DNA from: Mesaphorura yosii
Lineage: Eukaryota; Arthropoda; Collembola; Poduromorpha; Tullbergiidae
DNA length: 64,000 nt
Direction of reading: 5' to 3'
NCBI GenBank assembly: GCA_009869945.1
Contig: WIXG01000061.1
Location: 1 to 64,000, forward strand
A program made the translations under genes and the position numbers. A model generated the notes under the pieces. It was given only the letters and a program-made list of their open reading frames with translations, made no database searches and was not told where the DNA came from. How positions within the stretch are numbered: the stretch's first letter is position 1; every line of letters begins with the position of its first letter. Of this stretch, positions 19,119 through 45,217 are shown piece after piece.

Positions 19119-22100
19119 ATGCAACTGCAACCGCAATTGCATTTCACAAGTGTCCGTTTCAGTGAAATGACAACCGGCGTCAGAATGAAAATCAGGAGCA
19201 AAGTCGCTGCGAGTCACTCGACCGCCGAAGAAATGACATTTTGTAAAATTCCAAAAATAATTCGAACAAATTGTGGTTCACTGGTTCTCAAGTGGTTATT
19301 AGTGATCATCGCAGTCCAACTCTCGTCAAACTATTATGCATCAGCAACTTTTAATCTGTACTTGGACAGAAGAGAGTTCCAGAAATTGCATGGTAAACTC
19401 AAGCATATAATTACCGCCACGCCACGCCATAATAAGTGCATTGTTTTCTCAACCCATTTGCCTTCTTCGTATGCAATTACGTAATAAGCCGTAACGAGGT
19501 TCGTTCCCATTCTTAGGTCGGCCCTGCGGGTCGAGAAGTAATGCCACGAGTAAATGTTCCGTAATAAGGCCATGAATAAATGAAACTTGGCTACTTGCTT
19601 GCGTTTTCCCAAGAAAATTACTATTCGAATATGATTAGGACCCAAGACATGATAAATTATTTGATTGCGGCTTTGTTTGCTCGGCATTTTTGCAATCAAA
19701 TACAGTGCGTATGTTTTTCTTGACTGTAGGCATCATTAGGCCACTACAACGTTGTGTCATCATTTATTCCTGTTTTCTGTGTCGTTGATAGTGCGCTGGA
19801 TAATGATTGACTTCAGAATTCTGAATTCCGAGTGCCGTGCCATCAAATTCATTGAGAAATGCTTCACGACTGGCTACTTGGTTAAAGAAAATATTGTTTG
19901 CCTCTGAATAATGGAATTCGAATTCTCCGAATTGCACGCAACTCACACATCATTAAATTCCGAACGTCACTCATTCATTGTTATTGATAAATCAAAAAGG
20001 TTCCATGACCGTAAAAGACATTTCAGTTTAAGCCAATGGAGAAACTAAAGCAATAATCTTGAACATTTTGTGGTGTATGAAATTATGACAGGGATAGCGG
20101 AAATGGTGCGGTGGCCAAAGCCAAAGTCAAGTTTCTTCAACACTTCAAGTACTTGAACCTCAAGAAAGTTTGTAGCTACCTGAATTTTTATGGTCCTTGT
20201 CTTGAGTCTTGAGCCACTCAAAAACCCCTTTCTTGTACTCAATGAACTCGTGGGTTCGTTCGGAGTTTCGAGTATTGCCTGACATTTGCACTTGTTCTCG
20301 TATGGAAGTGACATTTGATGTGATTATAGGTATTGTAAAACTTGTAATAAAACGTGCAAAATGTGAATGTCGGATTTCTTTTTTCTTTCTCCGAACTTCA
20401 GCTTGGGTTTTTACTGCTTGCACTCGCATGGCATGATCGGTTCTGCTTTCCCTGATCTCAATGTCTGCATATGTGCAAACTTTGCTTGCTTTAAGAAATG
20501 AGAGGATAAAATGTCAAAATCTGCGAGGTGGAAGTCAGTCGAAGGAAAGGCAGCCTCCGATTCGAGTTTCCGCAAAAGACCGAATTTTATTTGAAAGCTT
20601 ACGTTATCGTCGCGTTGAGATCAACCAGAACTTTGATATGTTGTAATATTTGAAATATTTGCTGATCTTTTCTTCTCAAATTTTACATAAACGCCTCACT
20701 TTTTTAGCTTCATATTTTCAAAACTTCGCTGTTTGACAAAAAGTTATCCTGTTAAATTATTCTACAATAACTGAAATAAGATCAAACGAACTCGCACGTT
20801 TGGACCGCTACCGTAACCGCAAATCGCAGATGTGTGAAATTGTCGCCAACTTTTCAAATATTGAGTTTAAAAAAAGTTTGCATTTCAAAAATGAATTTTT
20901 CGCATTACAGATTATAAAGTCCTGAATGTCTTCATCAAAGTATCGAATCCTATCTTTGGCCAGTGCCTTACTGGAATTTGAATGCCTCGTGGGCCTGGCA
21001 TTTGGAAATTCGGACGCACGACAAAGCTTAGACTTAGAATTCAATATTTCGAATACAGCGACGATGACATTTACAGCATGTACAACGTAAGAGAGAACAT
21101 GATTGCAGTCCCCACGGACATAAAATGTCAGCCTCTTCTCTGCTAATGGTATTCTTGCTATGTTGTATTGTGACTTGTGAGGTAGAAGGGACACGGACCA
21201 ACATTTCCAGCCATATTTCCTATTTCCGAAGAAATGAGTAATAGATTTCTTCACGTGCAGACTTTCACCCTGTTCAGTGCACAATTTACAAAATTGAATG
21301 ACACTGGCGATCCCGTTCAACAAAGCTGTCAAGTGCGCGTGGGAGGGGAGTGCTGACGAGTTATTCTTTGGCGATTGCAGTGGGAAAACTCGAAAATCAG
21401 AAACGGCAACGGGAAACCTGTCCCCGCCGTTTTGAAGTAACTTGTGAACTTTTCTACTCCCCACAGGTTGCAAAGCAAAAGTTATACACTGCCTGGCTGA
21501 ATATTTTCATTTTCCACTCCTGATTTCTTGTTGCTTGGTGCCTGTGAATGACATCGCGCTCATCACCACCATCAAAATCGGTTTCAGTGAGACTCGTACC
21601 TAAAGTCAATGCTTTCTATTGTAATGACATGTTTAATTTACACTTGTACCCAACCTGCAAGTGCATTCATTGTAGAATATTTCATTCAGTTCATAATTTC
21701 GGTTCAGTACGAAGAAATTCTCAGGCACAGCAAGCTACGCGAACACGACAGACACCGCGACGCGACCGAATTTATTGTGCAGAGTGCAAAGACCAAAAGA
21801 ATCGAGCAAGGCAGGCACGAGTCTGAAGTCTTCGAGTCAAAGCCATATTGTACATGACACACGCAGAAGGTAACAGAACAAGAACAAGACTTCCTGCTGT
21901 GAGGAAAGTCTTTTAAGTTGTTACTTGCGCACGGCACACGGGGAACGCACATTATTGTTGTAATGGCATGGGAAATATAAAGCGTCGTTGTAAATGGAAA
22001 TCTGAGGTAGCAACTCTCCAGAGGCTGAACTCTGGGCCCGTACGCGTACGACAAATGAAACGGAAAAGGATTGTTGTTCGTTCTACAAGTCTCATAAGAC

Positions 22101-25100
22101 GTCAACTCCACGCACAGCGCAGGCATTATTGGCAAAATAATTAACGAGTCCTGCTCGTAATCGGAGCGAAACAGGAAGCGAACTATATACAAATTATTAT
22201 GAGCTCATGCTCTCAATTCTAACGGTCGGCCGTGTTTAAGCCTCTCTCGTCTCGAATTTTAACAGCCATAATTTCTAGAAGGCATTAACATTAACCTGCA
22301 TTATTATCACGAGTAAATTGTCATGTTTCTCTGTTCGCTTACTTATTTCGTTTCAGAAGCAACTGGCAAGCACTTTTTATGTCCGAGCACTTGGAAAGTT
22401 GTCATTTTTAGTTATGGGCTTTCCCAAGCTATCAGGACTGACGACTCAGACTCGGGTTGGCATTTTCGCCAGTCGCTCCTCGCCATTCCGCTTACTACTT
22501 GCCAGTTCGTCTTTAATTCTACTTTACTTCTCCTTGGAGTCGAGACTGGGCGACATTATTGCCACACATTTCCCAAATCTATGTGACCACTGGTCCACTG
22601 TGAAGCCATTAACGCGCGCACATCACGCTGGAATACTAGTAACACGTGGCCGTAAAGGAGGACTAATGTAATGGATTTCTGTGGCGATAATATCAGTCAG
22701 TGTGGCCACAAGTCTCTCGCTCTCACTGACACGTGCGTAAATTGTTTTCATACATTCAACCAAGCCTCGGCCAGCACATCCACGCGCGGCGGGACATGAC
22801 TCAATTGCTTTCATCAGCCGGTGATAATATTGTTATTACGTAACCGCAAAGCAAAGGAAGGACGAAAAGGAAAACAAAGTGTCAAAGTTCCAGTTTTCAG
22901 TGTCGTGAGTGTTGCGCGTGCGGTGAAAGAAGTCATTTTCTTTTCTTTACACTCGTTTCTTTGTTTCTTGTCTCGTCTCGTCCGTCTTTCTGTCTTTATT
23001 TACTTTCCTCGCAGCTACCGCTTGCTGCGCCGTGTCAAGTGTCATGTGAGCCAACTCTTTCGTCGTGTGGTGCAACACACATTGAGTTTGAGTTTAGATT
23101 AGTTTCTCTTTCCGCTCCGCAGTCAACAGCGAACTGAGCGAACGACGAACGAGTTCGTTAGCTGTCGAATTGAATGCATTACGTTGCGCTGCGCTTTCTT
23201 GTTTTGTTTGAAGTCAATGCCTGTCTATTTTGCTGACACGGCGAGCAGACTATTTTTACAAGCTTCATCCGCTCATACTCGAATGTGAAGTCATAGAAGT
23301 GAAAAATAGACTCAAATTAGGTTGGATAAGTGAGTGCCAGACTCAACTAAAGACTGGGCATTCGTGTCGAAGCACTGGCACGATCTCCCGAACTCAATTT
23401 GAGCCAATTACAAAAGCACAAGGTAAAATAAACAAACATCGTAATTAAGAAAATAGGAAAGACTTTTAATTAGAAATTCCAATTTTCCGGATTGCTGTTC
23501 AGAACTGTGCATATAGGAAAGTTAATGACCCTTATTATTTAAGTTGTTGAAGTATGCAGCACTCTCAATTTGGAATATTCTGGCAATAACTTTGTTGCTC
23601 GGCTCTCATTCCGTACTTGATTTCCATCTACCACATTTCCGCCATGTACGCTGTGCTTGATATTAAATCAAAACTTTGAAACTATTGATATTATTGTGGT
23701 TTCGGCTAGGCAGCGGAGAAGAGGAAGGGAATATTTGCCACTGCGACATGTAATACAATTATTACGTAAGAAAGTGATCTAATATTTCATGACAAAGGAT
23801 TATTAATAGCGATATTTTACATGAGCCTCCTGCTCGAACTTCGAACAGCAGAGATTAATGAGAATTAAAACTTGAGCCGTAAGTTCTAGTTTTACTATGG
23901 CGATTTAAACAAAGAAACTTTTCGCATAAGCACGCACGAAATCTGAATTGAATTGTGATGTGACTGAATTTTTATGATTTTAAAATTTTGGCACGTGCCG
24001 GTTTTATTTACGCTCCTTTTAAACTGGCTTGCCTAGTGCATGGCAATTCTTATTCGTGTCATTCCTCGTGCTCGTTCGCTCTTGCGAACAACATTGAGAA
24101 TTGATTGAGTTCTGGTGAATAAGTGATCATAAAACTCTACTCATGCGACAAGCAAAAACACTCGAGCTAGGAACTCCGACTTGCTCTTGCAAGTGCCTAA
24201 ATTGAAAGTTGCTCGGTGAAAGCGTTCTGCTACTAAATCTTACTTTATATTCTCAACATATTTTGAAAGTCAATTTCTTGAAAGGACTCAGCAACCAATT
24301 TTGAGAGCAAGTTAAAAGAAAGAATGTTATTAAGAAACGCATCGAAGCAGAGCCTTCACGGGGAACGAAGTAATAACGCAAAGAGACAAGATGGATATTC
24401 GGTTAAACCAACCAGAACAAAAATTTGTAATTTAGTAATACATGTGAGTCGAGTCTATCGATCAATATCCTTGAGCAAATAATGTATAAAAAATGGAAAA
24501 TAAAAAGGCATTGGCCATATTGATACAAAACACGACAGGACAGGACAGAAATGAGCGTTGTGTTATCCTTCGCTCGAGGAGGAAGAGAACCTTTGCTGGC
24601 GCTGGCGGTGGATTCCCAATTTGTGAAAGCAGTCTTTATTTTTTACCCTCGCATCGAAGGAGTACGAAATGCTGACTGGCTGGGTAGGGCAGCTGTTTGA
24701 TAGAATTGAAAGATAGTCAGTCGTTGGACAAGAAGATAAGAATAAGAAAATAGAATATTGCTTATTGCCAGTGCATCGAGTAGAGACTTTGGCTCTTGAG
24801 GCTTGAACCACAAAGCGCAGCCAGGAGAAGATAACTTTAAACATTCGGTTTGGTGTTCAAGTCCGTGTCGATTAATGCCATTGCGTGTGATGCGAAGAAA
24901 ATCTTGCGTATTGCATTCGGTGGTGGACCTGAATGCTTTCTCTTGCTACTTGTGCCAGGCACCAGCGAGTCAGGGAAGAACGAAGCTGACGGAGCATGGC
25001 GTTCTATATATCACATAAAATATTACATTGCATTAACCCAGCATTCAGCATTTTTCTTAGTTTCCGTTTTATTCCCGCTTTCGTGCTCTTTCGCAGTCGT

Positions 25101-28100
25101 ACAACTTTCGTGCAAGGCATAAGAGTCTTTGCAGGAGGATAGCATACGTTTTTAAACACAGATTTACGCACAATGGAAAAATTTAAAATTCAAGGAAACG
25201 TTCTGTAAATTTATTGTCCATTTGCTTTTCATTTCATATAGTACAGCACGAGTTTTACGTGCAGTGCAGAGGAAACGGAAGCTTAAGATGTGCCAACAAC
25301 AAATACAAAAGAACCGGGGCTTCTGTCTCTGATGTAGAACGAAACGAACGGGTGTTGGTAATCATAATGGAACGGTTTGGAAAAATTAATATAATAAATC
25401 AATGAACGTTTTAGGAAAAATGAAAGGGAAGCTTGTCTAGCTCATGAATAGACGCAAGACGCACCATTTTTCATCATCACTGCTGCCTCTTGTTGACTAG
25501 TGAGATAAGACTTAATAGATTGCATGCAATGCAATGACAGCGAATCGCCGGCGATGTCATCGTATTTTTGCCATTTTTGCGTAACGTAACGTGTCATACG
25601 AAGAAATAAAATAATAATGCTAAGAACCAGCACGTACGTTCAAAATTGTTTTACTTCTTCCTTCGCTAAGCATTCTGCCAATGTTGGTGAATTTGATGCA
25701 CTGAATTTTTTAGCTCTGGTTCTGAATTTACCGTTTTCACAGCCTCGAGTGAGTAGACTCACAGATTCGAACTTCCAACAAGCTCAGCAAGCACATTTAC
25801 AGATACGTCGCGAAGTTTACCGCTGTCTCCTGAACAAATGAGATTAGACTGGAGTTTAGTTGAAGTTGACAAAATACAAATAGCAAAACATACAAAATTA
25901 CTCATTGACACTCCGTAAACGAACCAGAGGCTTGCCTTTGCTGCAGATTGGATTCACTGGATGATGGCGATGGCTGTAGGACTCTGAAATTTAAACATGA
26001 GCCGTGAAGGCACATTACTCACGTGAAACTTTCTTCGTACGCACCACGCAGTACGCAGCCACGCATCGCGTGGTTCCTCGCTCGTTGCTGCATCTGATGA
26101 TCATGAGTGAATAATACAATTTTGGCTGATATAAAATTAGTTTTTAAACTACAAGAGTCATTTATTCAAAGGTAAATGGAGTTTCAACAATTTGGGAACC
26201 GTGCTAGCAAGCAAGCGTCAGCCTTCAGCGACCGGCGACGGCACAGCAAGTGACATGATGCCGGCCTGAGCTCGTGCATCGTGCATTCTCACACTCTTGA
26301 CAACTTTGAAACTAATTTCATTTCAGCTCACTGCTGATAATAAAGTTTCCAGCCATGTCGACCATCCCACTGCACTGCCACGGCTAACCAGATAGGAAAC
26401 CATTCACGACCACTCCGGTAATGCAATGTACATAAATTGTGTGAGGAGAAAGAGTCCCAGAAGAGACGCGGAAAAACTTCATTGGTGTGTGGTTAAGAAT
26501 TGAGTGAGTGTTAAACTGGTTGTAAAACATTTCGCAGAAGAAAGAAAGTCTGAAAGAAAGTGTGAGAACAAGAAGCAATTGGTATTCTGGTGAGAAATTG
26601 TACAATAAGAAAGATTCTCCTCGACTCGTCGTCTTTGCCTTGTTCGTATTCATTCCTTCTCTCGGCGTTTAGAGAACTTTAACTTTGAGTTCGCGTATCT
26701 TTGCCTTACACTGACAATTCGATGCAGTTCACCTTGCCTTTTAATGTTCGTTCTTTTCGAGTTTTCAAAGGTCTTTGCCTTGCCTGTACTGAATTTATGT
26801 TTATGTTCGGCACATTTTGTGTGTATTTTGTACTAAAAAAAAGTTTGGAGTTTAAATGTAAAACTGTTCAAAGTTAACTTGAACGGAGAGCGCAGAACAA
26901 GGAAGATGATATCCTAGAAGTTCTAAAGAAGCTACAAAGTGAAAAATGCAAAGGAAATCACGAGAATTCGATTTTGCATGGCATTCCTGAGCCCGGGCCC
27001 AAGTGTGTATATTTCTCAGGCATATTTCTCCGCTACCGGCCTTTCATTTCCTTATCACTTTTGCACATTTATGTGCAGATTCCATTTCGACTTTATCTGA
27101 ATTCACTTACCATTTTGCTGTGTTCTCATTCAAATGCGCCACGGCGACGGTAAATTTCGTGAAATGGATGCATTAGCAATTTTAGGTTTCCAAACGTGTA
27201 CTCTGTTTACAAAAAAGAGCATTGACTTTCCTAACGCCACGAATTGATTGAAATGAAGTCTCGTCCTCAAAAAATAATTAAGTTGTACTCCTGAAAGCTC
27301 AAATGACAAATAATTATTTAACGCTTCCGAATTCCAGTCGACACAAGAATTTAATTACGTCTAATTACTTTTATAGACAGAGGAATAAAAAAGGCATCAA
27401 GCTAATATTTACTCACATGTTTCTAATCAATTTTGGTAACAAAGTGTCGTTTTTCAACAATTCAAATGCAAAAGGCAAATTAACGGCAAATACATTGAAA
27501 GTGAAAGCTATTAGCGACTGACCGAGGACACGATGTTGGCAGTTTGCAGTTGGGGACCATATGCCCACAACTTTTGAATGCGAAATGGTGAAACCCTTTC
27601 CTTCCTGCCTCGACGAGTAATTGCATAAGGGATTTATGAGGTTGAGGCCATAAAAAATTCATATTTATGGCTTATCTATATGTGCAATAATAATGTATGG
27701 ACTGCTAAGTGCACATTGTCTTAATAGAACCCATTGAATAATCTCTGCGCATGAAAGCTTTCTCCTCAAACTCATAATATTTTAGAATTTCTTCTGCGCT
27801 TTTCCAATTCGATGCGTGAAAGCAAGCTTGTAGATTCACTGAACATGATTCCCGCTCCAAGATTTGCTTTCTTGTTCGCTTCTTTTCTCTTTCTTTCCAT
27901 TTGACTTGGTAGTAAATTTATTACACCATAACTTCATTCATTCACCCACTCGCTCGCTCACCATGCAGCGCAACGCAGTAGTGCTCAAGCATAACTAAGA
28001 CGAAAAAATTACATTTTATTATCGCGTGATCAGGAGTCATTACAACGCGCAGTTTGAATTCTTTGTTGCCTGTGAGTTACCTTTTCTGTTCCTGATTCAG

Positions 28101-31100
28101 TCACTTTTACCAGCATTTTTTCCTCATTTTCCTATACGTTGCAGTTGCACGAGTCTCTCATTTGCATTCGTATTTAAGAAGAAAAGAAGGGCATTATTAT
28201 TATTATTAGCAGGCACGTTTTAAATTTAGATTTTCTCTTGCAAGCCGAGCTTGTGCATTGCATTTACTAATGACGCGGCTCGACTCGGGCCTTTCGAACG
28301 TGTGTGCGCGTCTTTTCTAAATGTTTCTCAAGGTGAAACTAAATGGCGAGCCACATGCATTTGTGCATCGTAGCAAAGGAAGTGAAAGCGCAGTTAGACT
28401 CTGAATGGCAGGCATGGAGAGTCATTTATCTCTCGCACTCCGGAAATTAATCAATCCTTTAACTTTGTATACGTTGTGGGCTTTTGATAGTACATCGAGT
28501 CGAATGCTGGATAGGACATGTTTCGGCACTGCTCACAAAGCACGATGTGGATATTGAAAACAGTCAAAGAACCATGCCATGAGTAGGCAATAAATTCGAA
28601 TTTCGCAAACATATTAATTTTAAAACTCACGTTCACTGATCACGTATTCATTTTGCTGCTCGCTTCGTTCAGTGGAGTGTGTGAATAATACATTTTGCGA
28701 ACAATTTTAATCAAACGTCAGATCCACGTAGCCTTTTAGAGTAACGAAAAGCGATTGGCTTTTGCAACAGATATTGAACTGCCACGATCCAGAATTATTG
28801 CGATTGCAGGCTCGAACTTTGCAATAAATAACGCAATCTCAAATTAGGAAAGCCCTCGTGAGCAATTTTTGCGGAATGCACTTTAGCACAAAGCAAACTC
28901 CAAAGTGTGAGTTAAATGTAATTTCAACTAATTGCCCATTAAGTGCACCGATGAAATATTTCTTTTCATTTCGTAATTTCTTCTGGACCTGCGTGGAGAA
29001 ACCGCAAGCGGAAAATTGGCTTATGGCTTTAAAACAAACATTCTGCTACCGGTGCACGTCTCAACCCCAGAATTTAATTGATTTATGTGCAGATAAAAAC
29101 ATTGAATGAGTTATGAATACGGAAAGGGACTGCCTACCTGTTCTTTATTATCCGCATCCAGTCCAGCTTTAATGGGCAAATGGGTTTAAAAACTAAATTA
29201 TGTTGTACTGCTCGGCAGCTACAAGCTATTAAACAACGTTATGTTTTCACTTTACTTCCCCTTTCGTACGAGGTACGCGGTACACGGTACGGCAGGAAGT
29301 AAGTTCTTAACGTTCGTTTCATTTTCGTACAAAATTCGGTGCCGGGTTTGAATACGAAATTGCTACACGGACATTTAAATGTGAAGTTTAGTACCGTAAT
29401 AGCTCACGGTGTGAGTATATTTGTCTTACTTCACAATGCGCATGAATTATGCATAAAGTGTTGCGTTTGCGGCTGCGAGTTTCTAAGAAAGTGGAGAAAC
29501 CCAACCGACCGTCGGTCTGTGAGCCTTTCACTTCTGCAAATAGTTGTTCAAAAAACTCAAAATGGTGGTGAATATTGCAGACATGCATGCAGAATGTAAA
29601 AGATGCCTTCAATTCGCAATTCTAGCGTTCAGGAACTAATGCCTTCTATTTTTATATTTTTTTCGTGCACAGGTATCTCATCGGACATTTATTATATTCA
29701 GGAAGGAGTTGTGAACGAGTACGCACTCAATTTTGTGGTGACAGTCCCGCCAGAGGTGGAAGATCTTCATTTTTCATGGCAAGCACTCACCAAAAAACAG
29801 GTACGTGTCTCGTGTCGTGTCTTCTGACATCTCAAAATGAAATTGCTATTGTTAATAGCATTTGTGCAGGGAAGTCGAGCTGCAGGGAAGTTGATTGCTG
29901 ATTGCTTTTTTATTAACATCATTCAACACGGTGTGCGTGGCACACCGTGTTATTAGTATTCGTGCAAAACACTGCTTAAATGCACATCTGTCTCAATTTA
30001 CACTTGATTGGATGTAATATTTTGAGACTTTCGCGGATCGCGTGTAAATTCTCCCAACCACACATTAGATTTTCATGCTATTGTTACTTCTCACTAAATC
30101 ATGCGCATTACACCGTATTCAATCACGGTGATCCATCACAGACCAGAATACATGAAAGCTTAGCAGCTGTTTGTTTGGCTTTCCTTCTTTCTTTGCTCTC
30201 TTCCTCTTCATGTTCATTTCATTCTCCATGCGCTCCATTCAAAATGAAGTTTGGTTTGGCTTGTCTGCCTTACTGGCTCGACATCTTAATCTCTTTTCAC
30301 AAGTCAATTTAGCCAGCCAGCAAGCTGGCTAGCAATCCACCACGTCAAAACGCAACGTACCTCACATCAAAGAAGTTCTCTATTCATTCACTTGTCAAAA
30401 TGCTTGCGTTTCTTGCCTGCATACTGCCGGGCAGGTCATTAAACGAAAATGTGAGAGAAAGTGAAAGAACCCCGCCTTCGCCTTGGTGCTGGTCGTAAGT
30501 TTCATTGCACTATCATTATCAAGATTCTGGCGTCTTCCTGTCTGCCTGCTTGCCTGCAAGGAGAAGAGCCTAATGGAATTTATGGGACCATTTTTGCTTA
30601 GTGCGATCTGCTAATGCTAATCCAAGGCGGTTCGTACGAGTGTGCATGTGCGAGGCTGAAATAGTTTTATAATGAAAATAAGTCCCCAAGTGCTAATAAT
30701 AACAACCACTTTCCTTTGTGAATAAAAGTCAACTTTCACCGTGCTCCTGTCCAAAGGCAAACAAACTTACGCAGTGCGTGAGTGTGAAAGAAAAGCTGCG
30801 ACTGCGATTTAATTTTGTGACAGAGCAGGCCGAGATTTCTTGCTCAAGGAAAAGTGTTATTTTTGCCTCCCCTCCTGTTTAATTACTTGGTCTTACACTG
30901 TCGTTACATTACGACAGCAGAGATTAGATTTCCAGTCACATTAGCATTCATTCATTCACAGTCAGGAGACAGGCTGCGTAATAATAATAATTATCAGGAT
31001 AAAATGTCATGTCGAAATACTTCCTTGCCAAGCTGTAGCCTGAGCCTGCTGTGTAAGTGCGTAATTTTACTATCATATTTATACAACTTTCAAAATAACT

Positions 31101-34100
31101 TACGGGACCGAATAAATTACTGACGCGTGTCGGCATCGGCATGTCGCCTCGCGGCCCTTCATGCAAATTAAAAGGTTCGGGTTGCAAATCGAAAGTTACG
31201 CACAAACTCGAAGATTGAGCACTGAACCGTGTGATTTTGTGGATAATTTGCATGCAAGACTAAGAAGTAGGACTTAACGTGTTGCACGAAATCGCATAAG
31301 CGCTCAAGTGTGTGTAGTCGAGATTAGATTGCATGTCAACTCGTTATTGTTGCTCTGACTTACACGCGTTCAAGCATTGTGAACACTTTCACACGACAAA
31401 AACATACACGTTTCGCTCGTGCATGGAGAAAAGTGCGTATTTACTTGACTGGCAGATTGGTGAAAGTTTTCTGCGTGTTTTCATAGGCAAGGTCCTCACA
31501 AGTCATACAAAGGCTTATCGGACCAATGCAAATTCTTAATCTTGGTAAACATTCTGCTTTCTGCGAAACTGGAAGCATGTGAAATCAAGATTATACTCGA
31601 TCAATATGGAAATATTATACGGGCACATTTTCAACACGTCAAACGCACAAAAATTGCGAGCAGGCATAATTTGTTTGACTTGCGTTGGAATTATTCAAAT
31701 TCTTTGTGTACATTCTTCTCGAGTGTAAATCTGATCAGTTCGAGTTGGCGTTAGTTTTCTCGCACCGGTGAGACTTGGTGTATTTTATGAGGAATAATTA
31801 GTCAAATTTTTCTATATATAAGTTTCATAAGGCTCCTGGTTGACTATTAAAAATTACTTGTCCTTTCGTAATTTTTCTCACAAAAATCATGTACACGCTC
31901 CGAGCCAAGAAATTATGAAGCAGCTCCTTATCAAATTACGACATCGATCTTTTGTTTAAAGTTTGTAATGAAAAATTACACGCCGCGCCACAGCTCATGT
32001 CAGTAATGGTAGACCATTATAACGAAAGTCTTGTCTTTCCTTCCCAAGTTTCCCAAGTGGTTCATATTTAATTGTCATTCAATGCCTGCCAGCCAGTCGA
32101 GAACTGAGAGCCACGAGTCTGAGTCAAAAGTCAAGCAGGAGACAGGCACAATCTAAATGGCTGCAAATAGTTTTTGTATTGTCTCATGTCTCTCAGCCCT
32201 GGTTGATGTTTCCGCTCACAGGAAGGGAAATTTTCCCTTTCATTTCATTTCTAATTTATATGATGAGTTTGGTTGGCTGGTTGACTGGCCGTGCTGTGAT
32301 TGTAACTGCAGAACAATCTGAAATGAATTGTGGACTCGTTCGGTGCGGATGCGGCAACCGGAGACAAAACCAATAAGCATGCGCTGCTTTGTTTACACCA
32401 GAGCACAATGAACCAAGAATTTCAGTTCCAAGACAAAGTCTCTACTGGTTTCTGGTTTTCACATTTTTATAATGTCAGCCGAGAATTGTCCCTTTGTTTC
32501 TTTTCATTTAAGCAAATTTCACCGCCGTCTTTACCGAATGCTTCGTTTTGATCCTCCCCTTCCAATCCTAAATACTAAACGAGAATTTCTTTTCTGGAAA
32601 TAAAAGAATTCAATTGAAGCCATAATCAAATAAAACAAAAGTTTTAATTTCTTTCTGTTGCATCCTGCCGCGGTTGCAGTTGGCTTGTTTCTTTTTTAGT
32701 TACTGGCTTGTAAATGAAATGAGGAATTTCTCGATTCTTCAGGATCAATTCAATGTGATTTGGCTTCAACTGTCTTCCATCTTTCGCTCGTTCCTTTGGT
32801 TCTTTGATAAATTGATTCCGTTTCCTTGTTAAAGACTACTAATTGGATCTGCAGTCAATTTCCGAAAAATAAACTCCACGAGACCAGTAAACTGCAACGA
32901 CTGCACTTTCAACGAGTGTCGTTTGTTTACTGACTTTTCTAAAGCCATTTGTCTTCATTACAAAGTCCGGGAATTTCTTTAAATTGATTTCTTAAATCCA
33001 TCGGCATAATTAATGATGTTTCTTCCTCATAAGACTACGATGAGTGAGACGAAGGCTCCAAGCATACTTTCAATTCGTAGCGATCCGGATACACGAATAC
33101 GAATTTCGGCTGGTCACAACTTTTGTGGTTTTCGATGCAAGTGAACTTGCTTTCCACTTACGAGAGTAATGACAAGGAGGGAGACTTAACGAGTAACGGG
33201 AGAGTCAGACGACAGAAATCAAAGGGGAGTCAGTCACACGACAAAGTCAAAGACTAGAGCCAGCAAATGGATATTCTGACAGTTACATTCATTTGTTTTA
33301 ATTGAAGCCCAAACAATTATTCTCCCCTGCGCTGGTTTCGTGCTCATGCTCTGTTGCCACTTTTATTGGAGCAATTATTTCCTATTCTTCCCACCGATTC
33401 TGGCCTGTCGCACGCAATAATTTTAATTTGTGCTGACAGCCATTGCGTCGCCTACAACAATGGAGAAGACTTGAGTAATTATTGAGCGCCAAGCACAAAA
33501 AGAATGTCTGCTTAACCACAAAAGAACTTTCAACCGAATTCTGCCGACTCAAAGATATGCACTCGATCAGTATGAACTTTGTGGTAAAACTTCCATAATA
33601 ACTTTTAAGTATTGTACTTGAAGTCATTAAAGCCGTGCCCATTCCGAGCTGCGGCTTCCATAAAACAGAGCCTCAGCATAGTTTCCGTTCAGATAATCCG
33701 ATGTCGGGTGGTCAACGAACTTTTATTTGTATGTTCGAATGCATGGGCATTCGGATACATGGCCATGGGCATCCGCGTTGGGTTGTCCTTTCGAATTTCA
33801 TATTCAATGGAAGCGTCCAAGCCAAAGTATTTTCTAATTTATTGGGCAATTATTGGCACCATGTTTTGTTATTCCGTGCGAGAAATTAAGGAAATAACTG
33901 TCATAATAAGTTGACACTGTGGAACGAAGGCGTTATGGTCAAGCTGCATACTCATTGAACTCGCTTTCGTAATACATTCCATTTTGCACTCTGTAAAATG
34001 AGCACGACCATAACAACTTATTATGATTGCTGAGTAAACAAGAGGACGTGAACGTAATCGACAGCTTTCTCTTCGCACTGGCTTTGTCCACCTGATTAAA

Positions 34101-37100
34101 AATTCAGTACCACGTAATTACCAAATTAAGCAGAAACAGAACAGCCACAGACGCATAAATGCAATGAGGAATGGTTTAAAGACCAATTCTTAAAGTTTCG
34201 GACTTTCACTGAAGTGCTGCTTCATGCGTTTACTTTAGAACAACTCGCATTCCCAACGAGCCTCGGCCAGCGTTACTCAAATTACCCTGAACGTGCAATA
34301 AAAGATCGTGCTCCGCGTTTATTTTTCTGATATTTCATTTAAATGGTTCGCAAAGGCAGATTTGTGTATAGAGACATTATATTCGAGCAATAATACTTGC
34401 ACTGCAGCAAGCTGGCGCGTGTTGTATTTGTAAGATATTATTTTATGGCATGGCTTTATGTATTTTATTTGCAACACGTATTTAGTGCCGGTTTCTGGTT
34501 TTCGAAACCCGTTGCTCATTGCTACTGCTGCTTTACATCGGCAGTGGTTAAGAAGACGTCGAACAAAACCACACGGAGGAGAAAAGGAGCTTGAGCTTGG
34601 AGCTTTGGCTTTGTGGTAATAACACTGGCACATGACCAGACCAGACAAACCCGGGCTCAGGCTCAAAGCCCAATGTAAATACTATAAAAATTTGGCCATG
34701 TACTACATTAAAATGAAACACCAAAAGAAAAACCAAACACAAAGAAATAAAAAGCATTGTAGACGCAATCATAAATACATTCGGGCCTTCTGCTCTTGAT
34801 CACAAAGGTTATGAGCAGGCAGCGCAGTAAGTTGATCTCTGTTTGAATCTTATTTTATTATCGTGAGTGCCTTGGTTTCATAAAATCACGTTTCAAGTAT
34901 TTCTCTGAGATTCTTTTCGTATTTCTTGCAAGACGTATTTACTCTTCACGCATCTGCGTCTGTTTGTACGCGTGTGGCCAGCGCAAGCGGTCTGCCTTCA
35001 TCTTCTCGTTCGCTTTCTTTAACTTTCATCATATTTTATCCTTTCCACAATCATAACTTTGTCTGTGCCGTTCGCTTTCGCCTTTTGCTGTTTGCGGATT
35101 TCGATTTCGTACTTGTTTTCGCCCTGCACAGAACAGAAACCACACGCACACACGCTTTTTCTATTATTACGAAAATATAATTCTTTCCTTTTCATCTACT
35201 TATTATCCTCATTACTTTCCTTGCTTGTGCTGCGCTTCCACATTCTCCGAGGAACGTCTTGAACTTGAACTTTCATCTTTGCGAGAGCGACCGCCTGTCT
35301 TCTTATTTACTCCTTCGAGATCTGGCTGTTGAGTTGCCGAGACTGCCGACATTTCGGCGACAAGGCACGACATTTCCCGGTGTTTTGCATTCATACTCTA
35401 AGCCAGTCATGACGTACGTGACTTTTATTTGGAATGAGGACCGCTTCTTGCCTCAAATCTTTTCCTCGTTCCAATCTCCTTCTCGAAGGAGCAAGCAAAT
35501 AAGTGGAAATACTCTTAAGGCCACGCACAATTTGCTTCCTAAGCTTTTAATAATACTTTTATCAATTGCTTTTATTTTAATCCTTCAACTGTTCCTGTTT
35601 CGTGTACAATCGCTGAAATCCGTCTTTCGTCACTCCATCACGATGGATTAATGAACGCACAACTCTTGCATAAAATCTGAAGCATGCAACGTTTACAGTT
35701 GTGTTATAAAATATGGAGGAACATATTTCATAATCCCTTGCAGCAACTCCATTTTTATTCACGCATAGTATTTAAAAGTTTGTGACTGCAAAAAATGTAT
35801 GATGCATTTTTCTATGTTTTAACAGATTCACTACGACATGTCGTACGAATACACGGACTTCTTCGCACTTTTACCGCCGTACAGCAACATCACAACCGTG
35901 GGACGAGTGCCACAGAATCTAGAAACTTTCCGGTAAGTTTGAAAGCGGGGTTTTGGCGTTCGTCGCTAAATTCTCATCGCGAGTGAGCAAAAAAGTCTCA
36001 GCCTGCGAGCAATAATTTATTCAAACGTACGAGCCGTCGCTCCATCGCGCCAACTCACAATTAGAGCAGTTTTCCCAAACTCGCATTATTTGTAGAGGAT
36101 TGAAGAACAAAAGCCCAGGAAATGCTTTTAAGGAAAAATTCCCTTTCTTTCTCTTGGTTTTTAAAATTAACTGAAAAACTAACGAAAGATGTAACCAGAA
36201 CTTAAAACTGTATGAATGCTTTCTACTGCTTCGACTGCTCCTCATTTCCATTTCTAGATTAGCACTTGAAATACTTGATGCGGAATTCTTTAGTTATTTG
36301 CTCCCTTTTTCACTTCCAACTTTTTCATTCGTGCATTCATTCATTTCATTCTATGTCGGTTGATGGGAAGCAAAGTCAAGGAACTCTCTCAAATGGTGTA
36401 TAAAGCACCGAAGAAAAATGTACAAGTAAAGTTTTCGGTATAATTGAGAAAGTATACGCTTTCGCGTGGAAGTAATTACGTATCCATACAAGTCAGAGTC
36501 AGGAAGACGGAGATTCTAGTATCACTTATTAACTCCACGCAATGTGGGGCGAAAGGAAGTGAAAGTGCGTAGAAGTCGAAAACAAAATGCGTGTTTGCAA
36601 AAAATATCGCTGCCAGATGCCGGTTGCGGAATGTGGAATCAAAGGCGAGAGTGCGTGGAAGTGGATAGATTATTATTATACTTTTGAAAATTAGAAGTTG
36701 GTCAAATCTCTTTGTTTCCCACTTTCTCTGGGGAGTATCAGATCAACCATTTCCTTTGGCTCACCGAAAAAGCCTGAAATTTTCTCATTTGGTGGAGAAA
36801 TCACGCGAGCATATGCATTAAAGATTGGAGCTGGTAGGCAGGCCCTGACTCGATAGCTAATCCCAAGCATTCTGCTTAAGAAAGGCCCGATCAATCGGAA
36901 ACCTTGCTGGCTAGCAAGAAAACATTCATGCTTTACAACGAAAAGTTCACCGGAACAGGCAGGCAAATCTGCACGTATATCAGTAAATAAGCCAAATGCT
37001 TATAAGATAAAGTGTATCATGAAATTAGACTTGAAACCGAAAAATGTACTCGCCCTTGCTGCGCATAGAACTCTTGTACTCAAGACACTTTCATGCGTCC

Positions 37101-40100
37101 ACAGACATACGCCGATTCTGATACTGATGAGGAGGATAACGATGATGAGAAAAGTATGAAGTGCGTGTAATCTTTCGTTACAAACACCGTTGACGCACTG
37201 TATAATTTCAAATGCTTTCTTTCTCGCCTCGCTGCAGCTTCACATAACGCAGTTCAGTACGCAGTGTTCAGGTTAAGGTAAAACACATTACACTGACAGG
37301 GAACTTCGACTAATGCTACTTTAGTGCCCCGTATACAAATGTTCTAAATGTGTTTGGAAAGCATGAAATGGAATGAAGGCAGACGACAGAAAGTTTTTTA
37401 TTTCTCTTCCGCGTCCTTCGTCTGTGTAAACTTTCTCTGGGGAGTCTGTCCGCGCCGGCGACAAAGACTCCAATTCCGCTCTGCTCTTATCAGAGGTTTG
37501 GATTTGCACTGCTGAAAAAGGTGAAATGAGTCGTAAGATTTTGAGCAAGAACACACGGTAAAAATTTAGGAGAAATACTGCACGAGCAAAATGAGAGTCA
37601 CTTCAATAGCTGATAAGACAAACTCACCAGATCACACCAATAAAATTGAAGTACAGGAGGGCGAAAGACGATTTATTGAATTAATTACATTCCAATGCAA
37701 GCTCGTCGTGACCACATTGAACATTAATTCTGACTTTCGGCTGGTAGAAATTAATTTCAAATAACTCGAAGGAATGTGAGATCCTTCCCTGCAGTTGCAG
37801 TTCGTGCGTTGCCCTCCAGAGCACTTTTCCCGCAAATATTCGCCTCCGTTTCAGTTTCAGTAATGAAAGGAAAACAGTAATCAAAATCCATGCCTTCTCC
37901 ATTACTTCATTATTGCCTGGAACAAAATCAAAGTCTCGTATTTGTCTTTATTAATATTTATATTTACTTTTCAAAAAGTTTCCTGAACTTAAGTGCAAAG
38001 CCAGAGTTCGTCGTGCCAGCCAGCCAGCAAGCACCTCGAGACTCTCGAAATGAAAGATGATATATTTTTATTATTATGAAGAAATATGATTTTCTCCCTA
38101 TTTCAAGTTCAAACGCATCAGCAGTTGAAGCTAAAGCAAAGTGAAAGTTCACAACGAGGGGAGAAAGTAGAAAGAAAGCTGAGTATCCGAGGATGAGGAA
38201 AGGGAAAACTTACAACTTCACAAGTGGTGTTGTTAATATCGCGTACAGCGAGCACGGTAAAAAGTGTACATATTGGGAGAAAGTTTTGATACACAACAGC
38301 TGGAATAACAAAACGCGTACGCGTACCGTGTGCGAGTAGGAACTGAGCTCTATTGAAACTCAACCAAGCAAGAACTTCAGCTCGTTCTGTGTACTTTGTT
38401 CGTGGAGGGGTTAAATTTAAGTCTACACGATGCGATACACGAGCAAAGCATAGGTACGAAACCACAAATACTACAGTGTGCCAAGCGAAATGCGAAAGAA
38501 GTATCTCAATCACAATTTATGTATGGCAGATTGAGAACTCTTATGTTTCCGAGACGAGGGCATGGGAAAACTGGCAGACGCAGACGTGCGAGACTTGACG
38601 GTTTCGGTTTCCTCTCCACACAATTACTTTCACTTGACTTGTAACTTCCGGATAACGCCAATCAAATTGGAAATCATTCATTCCGTCAGACGCGCCCACG
38701 CTCACGCTCTTCCACGCTCTTCCACACTCTTGACAGGCATTTCTTTAATTTACCAAGTGCTCCCTCTTCTCTTGCTTGCCTTTGCTGTGCTTAAGCTTGC
38801 CTATTTCATCTGCGGGTTGAAGTTACATATTGACGCGATTTTCTCAGTTCTGTTTGCCATTTGCTTATTCTTGTAATTGGTTTCAAGCTAATCTTGCTTT
38901 CTTGCTTCTTGGCTTAATTAGAAACATGGAATCTACTCTTTTGCCTTGGTAAATGTTTGCTTCGCCACTGCCGCCGGCATGGATCTTTTATTAAATTACA
39001 TTGCAGCCGAGAGCAGAGTTGGAGTTCGACGGTCCTCAGATCCTTGTATTCAAATTAAAGTCCCCTCAATCCACATCTGCAGGCAATTACATTTACCGTT
39101 TACGTAGTAATTTTCCATGATAGAATTTCTGAACAGGAAGTTTGTACAGGCAGGTGTGTATCAAGATGTTCTTCAGCCCTTGCCCATATTTTATTATTTT
39201 TACCCATGCAGCGAAATCGCCGGGTCGTTTATTATTTCTGCAGTCGCTTATTCTTTTCTTTTCTAATTTGGCAACGAAGCCAATTCCGCAAACGCGAACA
39301 CGAATGAACCAGTAAACCAGTAACCAGCTGAGCGAGCGAACCGTTATAATAATTATTTTTCGTTCTGCCTCATATTTTGCTAATGCCATACAGAAAAAAG
39401 CTTTCGGCTTAATTTGTTTGTAATCCATTTCTTGTAGGACAAGAAAGTGGAATACAATTTTGCCTGACTCGCACGAAATGCGGGCGCCATAAAACGAATG
39501 AATTCTTATCGTGCAGTGAGGATATAAGTAGAGCAGGCGAGCGGTCCTTGCCCTCCTTGAGCGCTAGACAATAATCTCTTAATAACGCTAAACGGCAAAC
39601 TATTCCCATAAATATAAGCAGAATAATAAGAAATCTCCCGAGACTTGTTTCTCTGCTGCCTGCCCTGCCATTTCGCGTACGGTACCAGTAAAAGCATCGC
39701 GCAATGCCGCTGTGCACAATGACATACAATTTAACCTCATTATAAATGCATTAGCTCAGATCCGGTAATAAAAGCCAGCATAACATATGTGTTTATGAAC
39801 TCTAATTTCATTTCTGAATTCTTAAGCGCTCGTTTACGCTGAATTATTACGAAGTGGGCGGCCACATACGAAGATTCAGTCTTGGGCCTTGTTTAAGGCT
39901 AAGCTAAGAATAATTAGCTTTCTTGGGCTCGGCTGGCAGGGTTGTCCTAATTCTTCCGCGAACCTGAGCCCGGATGCGCAAATCCTACAGTGAAAGACAT
40001 CTTTCTTCACGGGACGAGAGGCAGAAAAAGTAGCGTAAGCAGGCTTTCATGTCACTAGAAATATAATCTTCTTCTATTATTAATGACGTGTCTGTCGCTA

Positions 40101-43100
40101 TATTCCTCGTAGAATTCAGCATTCATCGAGTAATTTTTCTTGACAAAACCATAATGCAAGTCAGGACATAAATGAAATTGGAATAACATTCTGTAAACAA
40201 GAATAACCAAAAGCCTTTCCATAATAAAAGATTTTATGCCTGAAAGAAGTGACAACATCAAGCGACAGCAAAAGCGAAAAGGGGAGGAATTTTCTCATTT
40301 ACTAAAAAATCAAGCGCATGAAAATGCAGGCGAGCAAAAAACATTGTGCAACGTACAAGAAAGGCATTGTAAAATGTGATGTAGTAATTCGTAATTCTAT
40401 TGTGCAAGCCAAACAACAGCAACCAAAGTCAAGGCGAAAGTTTCTTGGAGTCGGTCGGAATTGAAAAGAACGACGAGGAAGATCCAAAACACAAAGTACA
40501 ACGTTATAAACTTTTGTACCCGCACCCGCACGCATTTCAACTTATTTCTTGGTCTTGCAATAAAAGTTGCAATTGCCAGTGTGCCTCTCGCAGCTTCGTT
40601 CGTCTCCATTTTTTAATTTCATGCGTCTTATTTTTTACTTTGGCTCTACTGCACTGCACTGCAACGCATCTTAACCCTTTTATCATTTTACATCTTGTCG
40701 GGCGGCAGCATGTTGCATGCGCCTTTCTCTTGCCTTTCTTACTCGACAAATGTCAATGTTATTTCTTTTGTATGCCTCCTCGCTCTTCACGGCTGGTTAA
40801 TACTCTGGTTCGTTGTCGAGGCTGGTGACTGCCTGCTGCCTTCTCCCGTCATCGTCATCCTTCTGCACTTGTCAACTCTGTTAGTGCTTTCACTCTAACT
40901 GTAGCCTGTTTTGCTTTGTTTCAGACTTTCTTCATCTTTCCCCGGCTGCCGCGTTCATATTAGTGCATTACATTTTGCCCTCGGCTGACTTATGCAATTA
41001 CATTAAAGAACGACGTAGTAAAAAGTAAAAGACCAGATTCAGAAATTCAGACGATTTTGAGGTTCTTGGAGAAAGTCGTGTTTACTTTGTATGACTCAGC
41101 AAGAGGAAATCTGAAATGGAAAATCATCGCACCGCGGTGCTCGACGCACGGAGATGAAAAATGCGTATACAAAAGTTTGGGCACGTTTTTAAACTGTGCT
41201 CGCAAGCACCAGTTTTATGACTTAGTCCTGTTTTATTTCGCTTCGCCTGCGCCAACAAATGGCTTGATCATACAGATGCTGGCAGTGACTAAATATTCGA
41301 CTGTAAGATTGCGAGCAGACTTGACAATAATTTCTTGTCCCCTTCCGCAACTGTCAAAGACAATTTTGAAATTGGGAACACATTTTTCATTATTTTACAT
41401 CAATTTAATCATGCAATGGACGACAGGGACAGCAGAAAGCAGATGAACAGAAAATAGACGGAAATTCGCGGGTCGCGGAAGGGACACACCAAAGAAGTCT
41501 TTAGCATTAAAAAAAAGGAAAGGGAGAGAAGGGAATAAACTACAACTGCATAAGCAAAGCACAAGGAAAAGTCAGCAATAAAAGATCGGAAAGGAAAAAG
41601 GCCCAGACGACGACGAAATCAAAGGAAAAGAAACAGAAATCGTCATTCGCTCGTCGATTTACCAGGAAATACAGAAAGGAATTTCGTCGGAACAATTTGT
41701 TCTTTTCTTGCCTGCCATGCCATGTCGCTTTCTTTGCATGTGGGACGTTTTCTTTTCTTGGTTCTGCTGTTTCCTATTGCATTTGGATTTAGAAGATTGC
41801 ATTGAATTATTATTTCCACATTGTTCGACAGACAACGCAGGACATTAGGCTCAGGAAAACATGGACTTGTGAGTTAAAAGCAGAGCACAGTCGAGTCGCT
41901 GTGCGGCGCGGCGAAGGAAGTCTTTTGTTTTCGTAATGGCTGATCATTCACAATGGCCTTAGATTTCCAATATCGTGCGTAATTCTGGCATTTCACTTGC
42001 ATTGACTTCTTGAGTTGGGAATTTATGGAAGAAACAGTTGAATGAAAGGAAGGAATGAAAGTTTGTAACATCAGCTTGATTTTGTCTTGGTTCATGTGCT
42101 TGTATTTCATGCAAGCGAGAGAAAAGTATTGCCAGTTGTAAATGTGTATCCAAGTCATAAAATCAACGGCGGCCCTCCGACGTAGGAACATGGCTCATAT
42201 TGCTAACGCATATAACGCTTGCCTTGGCGTCAACCATCTGAACAGCAATTACTATCGGCCTGAACTTAGAATTTAACATGCATTTTATTCTTGGTCCAAC
42301 AGGGTCACACTCCCGTGTAGCGGAAGAAGTAACTCCGAAGTGCACGTAACAGTCAAGATTAACTTTCAAATCAAGTATCCTAAACCAAATACTACAGCGA
42401 TCACAATCAAGAGAAATAAAATCTGCTTGTTCAAAGGTAATTGATCATAAAAGGTCCATATCATAAAGAATTTTGAAATTTTGACAGATTCTATTCGATA
42501 CTAGTTGTAAGAAGTTGGGCAGTTTAACGAGAGGACGAGGCCCAGTTCAAGCCTTTGAACGTAATTCATGTATTTAGAGTTGGACAATTTGTGGCAGGCA
42601 GGCGTAGGCCCATTTATATCTCATTGCCGGTCGTGCCCGGTACCAGAATCAAAGCAGTAATAAGGTCGATAAATTACTGATGACAATCTCTTCCAGATAA
42701 ATTTTCATTTGTAAACGTGACCAGATTTCCGAATTTGTGAAACCATTCAATGTGAAACCTATTGACCATAAATTATATTGGGTTTCGTGGGCAGGTTCCT
42801 GATCACTCGTTTCAAAGGCAAGATCGTGTCCTTCATGCGTGATTGCTAGTGCGCTGGTGCTAAGGCTAGAATCGAAAAACTGTATTTCACGTGCGTTCCT
42901 TTTTCGTTGTCGACATCAATCATTGTGTAATTAACCAACCCTTTTCTGTATTCTTAGAAATGACGGCGAAGCCTCCAATGCTGCCCGAGCTGCCTGGACT
43001 GTTCCCACCAATTACCGTCGCCTCTAATCAAGGGACCCACCAGCATCAACACCACAGCCACAAGCAGCATCCGACTCATACGACAGGAGAACCGACGCTG

Positions 43101-44030
43101 AATTCAACTCTCCTCTTTCAGGATCCAGGACCAAGTCTGTTACTGGCGGGGCTGCTTGGTGGGTGTGCTGTCACGGCATCTGCCGTGTTCCTGACTTTCT
43201 TCGTGTGTCTGAAGCGAAAACTATTGAATGCGTCGCCGGCAAACTCCTCTAACGCGCAATCTTTGTATCCTTGTCATGAACCCAACTCATCGAGCAACAA
43301 TTCAAGTCCAGCTTGTCTTCTCCGACAATCAAATATGACAACCATGGTCGGAACCGGTGGAAACGGCACGAAAACAATCGCATCCACAGACGAGAATCAA
43401 ATGTGGAAGCACTTTGCACTGAACGCTGAGAAAGGACAGCCCGGAACAATTCAATCGCAGCCTGAACACAATTCCTACACAGTCGCCAGCTTCTGGAATG
43501 ATTTGTTCAGCTCTTCAACACCAAGCAACTGCCGCATGGGCAAAGTATCCTCAAACTCGCTCGCAAACAGCGCACTGAGAGGCTCAGACGTGTCACCGTA
43601 CGCGTATGCCCACATCGTTCCCTCCTACCCGCCGCTAGTCCCACCACCGCCTGTGCCTAAGAGCACTGGACTGCCGACACCACCCACACTGATCGAATGG
43701 TACTCGCAGTCCATCTGCCAGAGCGGAAATACGACCAATTCGAGCAGCAGCAACAATACCGGTTCCAACAAGCACGACATGCCGGGCGGAGTGAATGTGG
43801 CGGGGCACATTTATGCCAACAACTTGTACTCATTCACACCATTAAAATACAACTCACCATCGAAGCAGCTGTCCGGTTCTCACCTTCGAGTGGATGCAGA
43901 CACCGATGATCGTCCAGAGAATCAATTCTCAACAATGAAGTCGGGAACTGGAAGCTTAATTCAAGTTGATGGATTTCAATGTCGCAGAAACCTTGCTAAA
44001 GAATCAAACGTCGTAGAAAGATTTTTATAA
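19119..44030 (+). CDS. Ryk-like: Ryk/Derailed-like WIF-domain receptor lacking a kinase domain
   Basis: Five coding exons were assembled: 19119-19392, 29673-29800, 35826-35932, 42303-42436 and 42958-44030. Junction phases agree at every step (1, 0, 2, 1), giving 571 residues. Exon 1 carries a signal peptide (hydrophobic VLKWLLVIIAVQL) and the start of the WIF domain (NLYLDRREFQKLHG). Exon 2 has IYYIQEGVVNEYALNF and LHFSWQAL, and exon 3 has VPQNLETFR. Exon 4 has LPCSG and KRNKICLFK, which supply both WIF cysteines. This order matches Ryk/Derailed receptors, which bind Wnt ligands through WIF. Exon 5 adds a His-rich stalk (about residues 242-255), one transmembrane helix (about 274-299) followed by KRK, then a 270-residue Ser/Asn/Pro-rich tail with LVPPPPVP. 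No kinase motif (glycine loop, HRD-like, DFG-like) is present, and GINS2 follows immediately. An in-frame TGA precedes the first ATG. ATGs at 19167, 19185 and 19233 have better contexts, so the N-terminus is uncertain. Family assignment is firm; the role of the kinase-less form is unknown. Confidence 0.86.
19393..29672 (+). other. Intron 1 of the Ryk-like gene (10.3 kb)
   Basis: It begins GTAAAC after CATG and ends TTTTTTCGTGCACAG. No nested gene is recognised. It contains an unexplained 221-codon minus-strand open frame (20808-21473), a short (ATT)5 tract at 28193-28207 and a four-copy 7-base tandem at 29267-29294. Large first introns of developmental receptors commonly hold enhancers, but none can be pinpointed here. 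Confidence 0.75.
29267..29294. repeat. Four-copy 7-bp tandem repeat (GTACRCG-like)
   Basis: Four consecutive units read GTACGAG, GTACGCG, GTACACG and GTACGGC. All share GTAC followed by three variable, GC-leaning bases. The array lies about 380 bases upstream of exon 2 of the Ryk-like gene. It is too short for a satellite. It could be replication slippage or a clustered binding site. Confidence 0.7.
29801..35825 (+). other. Intron 2 of the Ryk-like gene (6.0 kb)
   Basis: It starts GTACGT and ends TGTTTTAACAG. Apart from the inverted repeat at 29925-29951, I see no exon, RNA gene or repeat family. The many 60-110 codon open frames inside are not supported by any domain. Confidence 0.7.
29925..29951. 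repeat. Perfect 12-bp inverted repeat with 3-nt loop
   Basis: Left arm AACACGGTGTGC (29925-29936), loop GTG (29937-29939), right arm GCACACCGTGTT (29940-29951). The arms are perfectly complementary. The element lies about 125 bases downstream of the exon 2 donor of the Ryk-like gene, inside intron 2, and would form a stable hairpin in the nascent RNA. No flanking transposon-like target duplication is evident. Confidence 0.85.
35933..42302 (+). other. Intron 3 of the Ryk-like gene (6.4 kb)
   Basis: It starts GTAAGT and ends TTGGTCCAACAG. A palindrome ACGCGTACGCGT lies at 38313-38324, and a purine-rich stretch (GGAAAGGGAGAGAAGGG and similar) occupies about 41505-41640. No coding exon was found. 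A WIF-like stretch near 37.65-37.77 kb was rejected on phase and an in-frame stop. Confidence 0.7.
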
Positions 44031-44221
44031 TTCGAGCAAATTCCTGTCAGCAGTTGTAAAGATAAGGACTCGGTGCATGTCAACACCCAGCAGAAATCTA
44101 CGAATCTGCTTTGTGATGAAAGGTTTACGATTTAGCTAAGTCAAGGTGAATTGGTGAATGTCTCTGAATGCAAGTCAGGGTTTACGAAATGTAACAATCA
44201 TGTCTTAAACTCGATATTCTT

Positions 44222-44248
44222 AATAAAACTGAATAAATGTTCAATAAA
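44222..44248 (+). terminator. Polyadenylation signals of the Ryk-like gene
   Basis: Three AATAAA hexamers at 44222, 44232 and 44243 lie 190-220 bases after the stop at 44030. They support 44030 as the real 3' end of this gene rather than an intron to distant kinase exons. The next gene's stop codon (minus strand) is at 44277. Confidence 0.75.
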
Positions 44249-44276: not shown

Positions 44277-45217
44277 CTAATCCAGACCAACATCTTCAAT
44301 CTCAAGATCCATGTCCATAGGTATCTCACTTTCTTGAGTTTCTTCGGAGTCGGGCTGGGACTGATACGTAGCACTCAGGGTCATTGACAGGGTATTGGAG
44401 TCGTCGATTTGCGAGTCTGTCGGTGCCGTCAGTGCTTCATTTAATTTCTATGAATATAAAAGCCATACCTTTTAGTAAATCATCTTGCGCGCCGCCGATT
44501 GCCCTCACTGAATTAATTTTGTGCCTTGTGACATTCTTACCTTCGTTAGGCCGTATATCGCCTCCAGTGCGTGGGGAAAGAATGGGCGAACCGCATGAAG
44601 CTCCATCATTGTCAAGTTGGCGAGCACGCCAACGGTTTGTTTGTCACCTAAGAACTCAGTCACTGAAGTTTTCAGTTTGGCCATCCTCGTGTCGTAAATG
44701 TCCTACAAACAGAACAAACTTAAAGAACTGATGGAGTTAATTTTACAAATCGGAAGCCGGTTAAAATTTCAACCTTGAGAATGTCCTTTACAAAATCTGC
44801 ATTCTTGATGTTCCCCGGACAGAGTTCAAACAATGCCTTGGCTATCACAATGTAATGTTCCGATGGCATTTTGACAAATGTTGTCTCCTTACTTTCTTCC
44901 TCTCTCAAATCTCGTAGGAAGTTTTCGTCAAACCAATCTGGTATGAGAATCTGGCACCTGTTTCTCACGCTCAAATTCGCAGCAACCCAAAAGGGCACCA
45001 CTGTGGGCAATCCAGCTTGGAATGGTCCGATATCACCAGACAACAGATTCAGTTTTTCGAGGTTAAAGTTGGGCACAATACCAATAAGCTCTCGCTCCGC
45101 CACGTACTCGAGTTCTTCCGGTGTCACTCCAAGAACAAATGCAGGCATGATGCTGTCAACATCAGGAGGCTCTTCTTCCGGCTCCTTGTCCTTTGCACTA
45201 GACGCAGTTTCTGCCAT
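44277..45217 (-). CDS. GINS2: GINS complex subunit 2 (Psf2)
   Basis: Three exons on the minus strand: 45217-44774, 44702-44541 and 44447-44277, all phase 0, 258 residues. The start ATG lies in GCCATGG, an ideal initiation context. The protein carries the Psf2 core: EELEYVAERELIGIVPNFN, GDIGPFQAGLP, VPFWVAANL, a region ending FVKDILK, then DIYDTRMAKL and LANLTMMEL. GINS binds MCM2-7 and Cdc45 to form the CMG replicative helicase in the nucleus. It is longer than human GINS2 (185 residues) because of an acidic N-terminal extension of about 30 residues and a 56-residue acidic C-terminal exon (QPDSEETQESEIP), where the family tail is usually variable. The donor after exon 1 (AAG|GTTGAA) is weak but supported by the alignment. 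It is tail-to-tail with the Ryk-like gene (247 bases between stops) and head-to-head with ACAP. Confidence 0.93.

Follow-up and report, generated by a model that had tools for sequence, protein, structure and literature searches.

A predicted kinase-less, Ryk-derived WIF transmembrane protein encoded alongside a complete Ryk in the collembolan Mesaphorura yosii

We analysed a stretch of 64,000 nucleotides (hereafter the window; positions 1 to 64,000 of contig WIXG01000061.1, assembly GCA_009869945.1) from the collembolan Mesaphorura yosii, which carries on its forward strand a gene for a WIF domain protein resembling the Wnt receptors Ryk and Derailed. A sequence-only reading of the window had proposed five exons encoding a signal peptide, a complete WIF domain with both cysteines and one transmembrane helix, and the same model was recovered when it was rebuilt on the DNA. 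Exon 1 (19119..19392) holds the start region, the signal peptide and the first WIF strand (FNLYLDRREFQKLHG), exons 2 (29673..29800), 3 (35826..35932) and 4 (42303..42436) the second, third and fourth parts of the WIF domain, with both WIF cysteines (LPC...KIC) on exon 4, and exon 5 (42958..44030) the extracellular linker, the transmembrane helix, the tail and the stop codon. Joined together, the five exons form a single open frame of 571 amino acids, interrupted by introns that range from about 0.5 to 10 kb, are all of the GT-AG type and have compatible phases (1, 0, 2, 1). Exon 3 was matched by tblastn with a human RYK sequence at an E value of 0.021, and its frame and splice sites fit the model. 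Codon-usage scores per codon were compared with those of four training genes (0.109–0.232) and with 1000 intron scores (500 windows, both strands), the maximum of which was 0.063. WIF exons 2–4 scored 0.106, above the intron maximum, while the linker and transmembrane stretch of exon 5 scored 0.138, with three of its five other frames higher (0.145, 0.150 and 0.177).

The WIF domain of the window protein is complete (Pfam, 138.9 bits, residues 80–211, profile positions 1–131 of 131) and was the only family detected in a Pfam scan with E values up to 1, which thus contained no EGF family. Among solved structures its best match is Drosophila DRL-2 (102 bits), compared with at most 33 bits for WIF1 entries, in agreement with the earlier assignment of the domain to the Ryk/Derailed type. 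The stretch leading up to the last WIF cysteine, where mammals have the basic run KRRK (PMC3776778), reads KRNKIC in the window protein, KRKIFC in a second, complete Ryk of this genome (C173, see below) and KRNKIC in DRL-2. Hydrophobicity (19-residue Kyte-Doolittle window, threshold ≥1.6) peaks twice, at residue 52 in exon 1, read as the signal peptide, and at residue 275. From hydrophobicity alone, a single transmembrane helix is thus predicted after the WIF domain, with the core LLLAGLLGGCAVTASAVFL (43137..43193, residues 275–293), and the extracellular part carries three N-glycosylation motifs.

The putative cytoplasmic tail (43209..44027) comprises 273 amino acids, close to the approximately 270 Ser/Asn/Pro-rich residues first described, and includes 43 Ser, 27 Asn and 23 Pro. 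It looks coding in character, with a codon score of 0.146 that lies within the training-gene range and above the intron maximum; one of its reverse frames scores 0.118. Searched across its own genome with E values up to 1, the tail matched only itself. Within it there is a run of prolines, and two Tyr-x-x-hydrophobic motifs, YAHI (residue 431) and YPPL (residue 438), lie close together. Motifs of this form serve in endocytosis, and the pair would fit such a role, yet they also arise by chance. One stretch of the tail resembled by eye what might be left of the Ryk juxtamembrane region, but this candidate was rejected, since another local alignment scored higher.

Three AATAAA poly(A) signals follow the stop codon (positions 44222, 44232 and 44243; 44222..44248), as the sequence-only reading had it. 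The next gene is GINS2 (PSF2; 44277..45217, reverse strand; PSF2_N 84 bits), with its stop codon at 44277–44279 and its first ATG at 45215–45217, both located by eye. That reading had correctly placed GINS2 on the opposite strand 247 bases further on, but the gene does not begin there: the 247 bases separate the two stop codons, and the 3' ends of a convergent pair face each other. The expectation that no kinase exon lies nearby was borne out for the first 113,200 bases of the contig (C61, 284,135 bases), which contain zero N. The best E value in this stretch was 0.10 for a human RYK kinase query and 2.2 for a juxtamembrane-kinase query from C173, and a scan of its six frames listed no catalytic-loop motif. 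As a control, the human query recovered five stretches of the C173 kinase exons, each at an E value of 0.001 or better. Positions 113,200–284,135 were covered by genome-wide searches, the counts of which are lower bounds; at least one kinase is listed there (134,444–135,499), which is 35–39% identical to two Ryk kinase queries and lies about 90 kb from the window gene, beyond the ACAP gene.

A genome-wide search (93.0 Mb, 1127 contigs) for a second locus, one of the checks suggested along with the sequence-only reading, revealed a complete Ryk with kinase exons on C173. Its eleven exons (3156–36853) encode 676 residues, in which a WIF domain (127.7 bits, less than that of the window protein; profile positions 1–115 of 131) and a transmembrane helix precede a kinase domain (229.1 bits). 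The kinase is closest to the solved structure of human RYK (6tua, 282 bits), followed by 9p9u (deposited as EGFR; 266 bits from two stretches) and the insulin receptor (182 bits). It is the only Ryk-type kinase among the best 136 of 279 genome-wide candidates, the others being at most 42% identical where longer than 70 residues and 43–54% identical where they are shorter fragments. Judged from these sequences, the window gene represents a paralogue of the C173 Ryk that lacks the kinase, and not the sole Ryk of this genome. Wnt genes were represented by 40 exon matches distributed over seven contigs; C565 apparently carries three of these genes. Separate from the window gene is a WIF1/Shifted-like gene on C137, in which EGF-like repeats were read by eye.

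Over the WIF domain, the window gene and the C173 Ryk share 61 of 145 residues (42%, E 1e-34; 60 of 136 in the multiple alignment). Introns occupy three common places in the two paralogues (phases 1, 0 and 1), and the window gene has an extra phase-2 intron within the WIF domain. In both, a phase-1 intron follows the last WIF cysteine and leads into an exon encoding linker and transmembrane helix, which argues that exon 5 is part of the window gene; the score of the two extracellular linkers aligned with each other was matched by 795 of 1000 shuffles. A WIF tree of six sequences (C61, C173, DRL-2, human RYK, human WIF1 and C137) separated the Ryk type from the WIF1 type with a support of 100, C137 grouping with human WIF1. 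This phylogeny, also suggested earlier, placed the window WIF domain with the Ryk type, but the order among C61, C173, DRL-2 and human RYK was weakly supported (29 and 38). Each paralogue is identical to fly DRL-2 at 53 of 133 positions (40%), slightly below the identity between the paralogues, and because the two are nearly as close to DRL-2 as to each other, the sequences suggest that the Ryk duplication is not recent. The WIF branch of the window gene is 0.63 long, compared with 0.51 for C173. Thirty columns do not vary among C173, RYK and DRL-2; the window WIF keeps 25 of them, as many as C173 keeps in the reverse test, and by this measure the domain looks to be under constraint.

The searches yielded several further observations. 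Within the window, a long uninterrupted ACAP-type frame (46091–48541, forward strand; BAR, PH, ArfGap and ankyrin) contrasts with the nearby Ryk-related gene and its introns, and a strongly Gly-rich frame (50690–51697, forward strand), which is Pro-rich on the other strand, falls in the 2-kb interval where G+C content (0.516) and GC skew (0.284) reach their maxima for the window. Across the genome, the kinase family PF07714 had at least 159 matches (from the best 129 of 642 candidates), many of them in long uninterrupted frames of small contigs, which may belong to the host or to a contaminant. A subtilase (Peptidase_S8) ectodomain and a receptor-type tyrosine kinase share one frame on C789 (L042, 1–2046; 77 and, for the kinase, 256 bits), and Peptidase_S8 stands beside a kinase in neighbouring frames of the same strand on C646 (L007, 2–2478, and L026, 1498–3583; 126 and 44 bits); it occurred in two of eight frames scanned from six kinase loci. 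A literature search for receptor kinases of the subtilase type yielded no paper. One frame on C539 (L024, 229–2373) combines a Kelch-type propeller with a tyrosine kinase, with an apparent transmembrane helix between them by eye. The cuticle domain Chitin_bind_4 had 66 matches in the genome, which together with the Wnt genes points to an arthropod; the cuticle collagen domain of nematodes gave no match, in a search whose controls were likewise silent. COX1 had no match in the whole assembly, which suggests that the mitochondrial genome is absent from it.

The window protein shares with Ryk, Derailed, Doughnut and Derailed-2 an N-terminal WIF domain of the Ryk subtype and a single transmembrane helix, and differs from Ryk receptors in having neither a kinase nor a pseudokinase domain within the searched 113,200 bases. 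The earlier description as a Ryk/Derailed-type receptor without a kinase thus holds for the WIF domain, the helix and the lack of a kinase, although the gene stands as a paralogue beside a normal Ryk. Since one of the features that define Ryk receptors is absent, we refer to it as a Ryk-derived WIF transmembrane protein. Its C-terminus (NVVERFL) is also unlike that of the C173 Ryk (QLAQYV), the -YV end being missing, and mouse Ryk, as quoted in part of one study, likewise ends in -YV (FHAALGAYV; PMC3776778) and not in RFL. Apparent absence of Ryk in lancelets has been ascribed, in passages of two studies, to gene-prediction error, and odd domain architectures may have the same cause (PMC6071037, PMC4967905); the window-gene model, still a prediction, was checked on the DNA itself. 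Among the matches listed from open-licence literature, no title or opening of an abstract mentioned a kinase-less Ryk paralogue, and kinase-less versions in other arthropods may already be on record.

Membrane-bound decoy or kinase-less receptors keep the ligand-binding part and the membrane anchor and lack the catalytic-type domain. The window protein has the same layout, and a decoy function would here be putative. WIF1 and Shifted share with it the WIF domain and the absence of a kinase, and WIF1 is secreted. WIF1 moreover carries EGF repeats, according to an excerpt of one report (PMC11414264), whereas the window protein has none and possesses a transmembrane helix. By the title of one study cited in PMC3293800, Derailed reportedly has no need for kinase activity in vivo. 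Fly Drl is able to sequester Wnt5 via its WIF motif, as stated in a passage of PMC7219789, and Ryk-type kinase domains are described as dead in part of a further paper, which calls their activity under some conditions unclear (PMC3293800). Loss of the kinase domain would accordingly be compatible with function.

We therefore consider it reasonably probable that the window gene encodes a functional, Ryk-derived, kinase-less, single-pass membrane protein that captures Wnt or acts as a co-receptor, and of the readings weighed here such kinase-independent action is the most likely, with a signalling tail as its main rival. If the gene is expressed, we infer that its extracellular WIF domain would bind a Wnt and that the protein, lacking a kinase, would capture, concentrate or internalise it; alternatively, it could assist Frizzled or the complete C173 Ryk as a co-receptor. 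The flexible tail might serve sorting or docking. Several observations weigh against this reading. Exon 1 has a codon score of −0.025, no better than its other frames and not coding-like, so that the 5' part of this exon is predicted solely from the open reading frame and a stretch resembling a signal peptide, and because a long stretch separates the first ATG from the signal peptide, the true start may be a later in-frame ATG. No match to the tail was found in Pfam or NCBIfam (bacterial and archaeal families), and any docking or sorting role for it is guesswork. The 273 residues have no detectable similarity to Ryk juxtamembrane regions in a test of low power: the alignment score was matched by 342 of 1000 shuffles against C173 and by 348 of 1000 against human RYK, and the control pair of C173 and human RYK was itself matched by 39 of 1000, hence the little power. 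Differences between the paralogues over 136 WIF codons number 58, 43 and 85 at the three codon positions, and the corresponding NG86 estimates (dN 0.53, dS 2.27, with dS saturated) compare the paralogues with each other and do not assign the constraint to the branch of the window gene.

The main rival, which we regard as rather unlikely, is that the protein is a true Wnt receptor in which a presumably disordered scaffold tail has replaced the pseudokinase and recruits, for example, Src-type or trafficking proteins. A tail of this length and coding character, unmatched elsewhere in the genome and with its proline run and the closely spaced YAHI and YPPL motifs, would suit such a receptor, and WNT5/DRL signalling in flies requires SRC64B, as noted in a section of PMC3293800; but the tail is without a recognised domain, and motifs as short as these turn up by chance. 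It is very unlikely that the gene is a decaying Ryk duplicate that has lost its 3' half and is becoming a pseudogene. A truncated copy beside a complete paralogue is, by reasoning, the expected product of a partial duplication, but here 571 codons are open across five exons with intact splice sites, the WIF domain keeps the conserved columns as well as that of C173 does, with a branch of 0.63 vs 0.51, and the codon usage of the tail resembles that of real genes. Highly improbable, too, is an incomplete model, in which an isoform runs from exon 4 or from within exon 5 into kinase exons, or the assembly is in error. The kinase at 134,444–135,499 does lie on the same contig, beyond the stretch searched by tblastn, but its identity to the Ryk queries is low and the ACAP gene intervenes. 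The searched stretch gave no kinase match, with a working control and no N in the sequence, poly(A) signals and the convergent GINS2 directly follow the stop codon, and it is the WIF and transmembrane exons of C173 that run in frame into the only Ryk-type kinase among the candidates scored. That exons 1–4 encode a secreted WIF protein and exon 5 a separate membrane protein is barely credible, for although exon 5 has an ATG two bases past its splice acceptor, its junction with exon 4 keeps the frame (phase 1 to phase 1) and C173 has the same phase-1 intron after the WIF domain, followed by linker and transmembrane helix.

A more specific history can be put forward only tentatively: an old Ryk paralogue, retained next to the full Ryk, may have permanently lost its pseudokinase and gained a new tail, turning into a dedicated membrane-bound Wnt catcher or into a receptor whose intracellular code differs. 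If this is true, the permanent loss would be a natural experiment on the purpose of Ryk's dead kinase. The presence of one Ryk with the kinase domain and one without it in the same species allows a direct comparison of what the domain contributes. If the short form does no more than capture Wnt, it would parallel WIF1 in membrane-bound form; with a signalling tail, it would couple the same ligand-binding domain to a new output.

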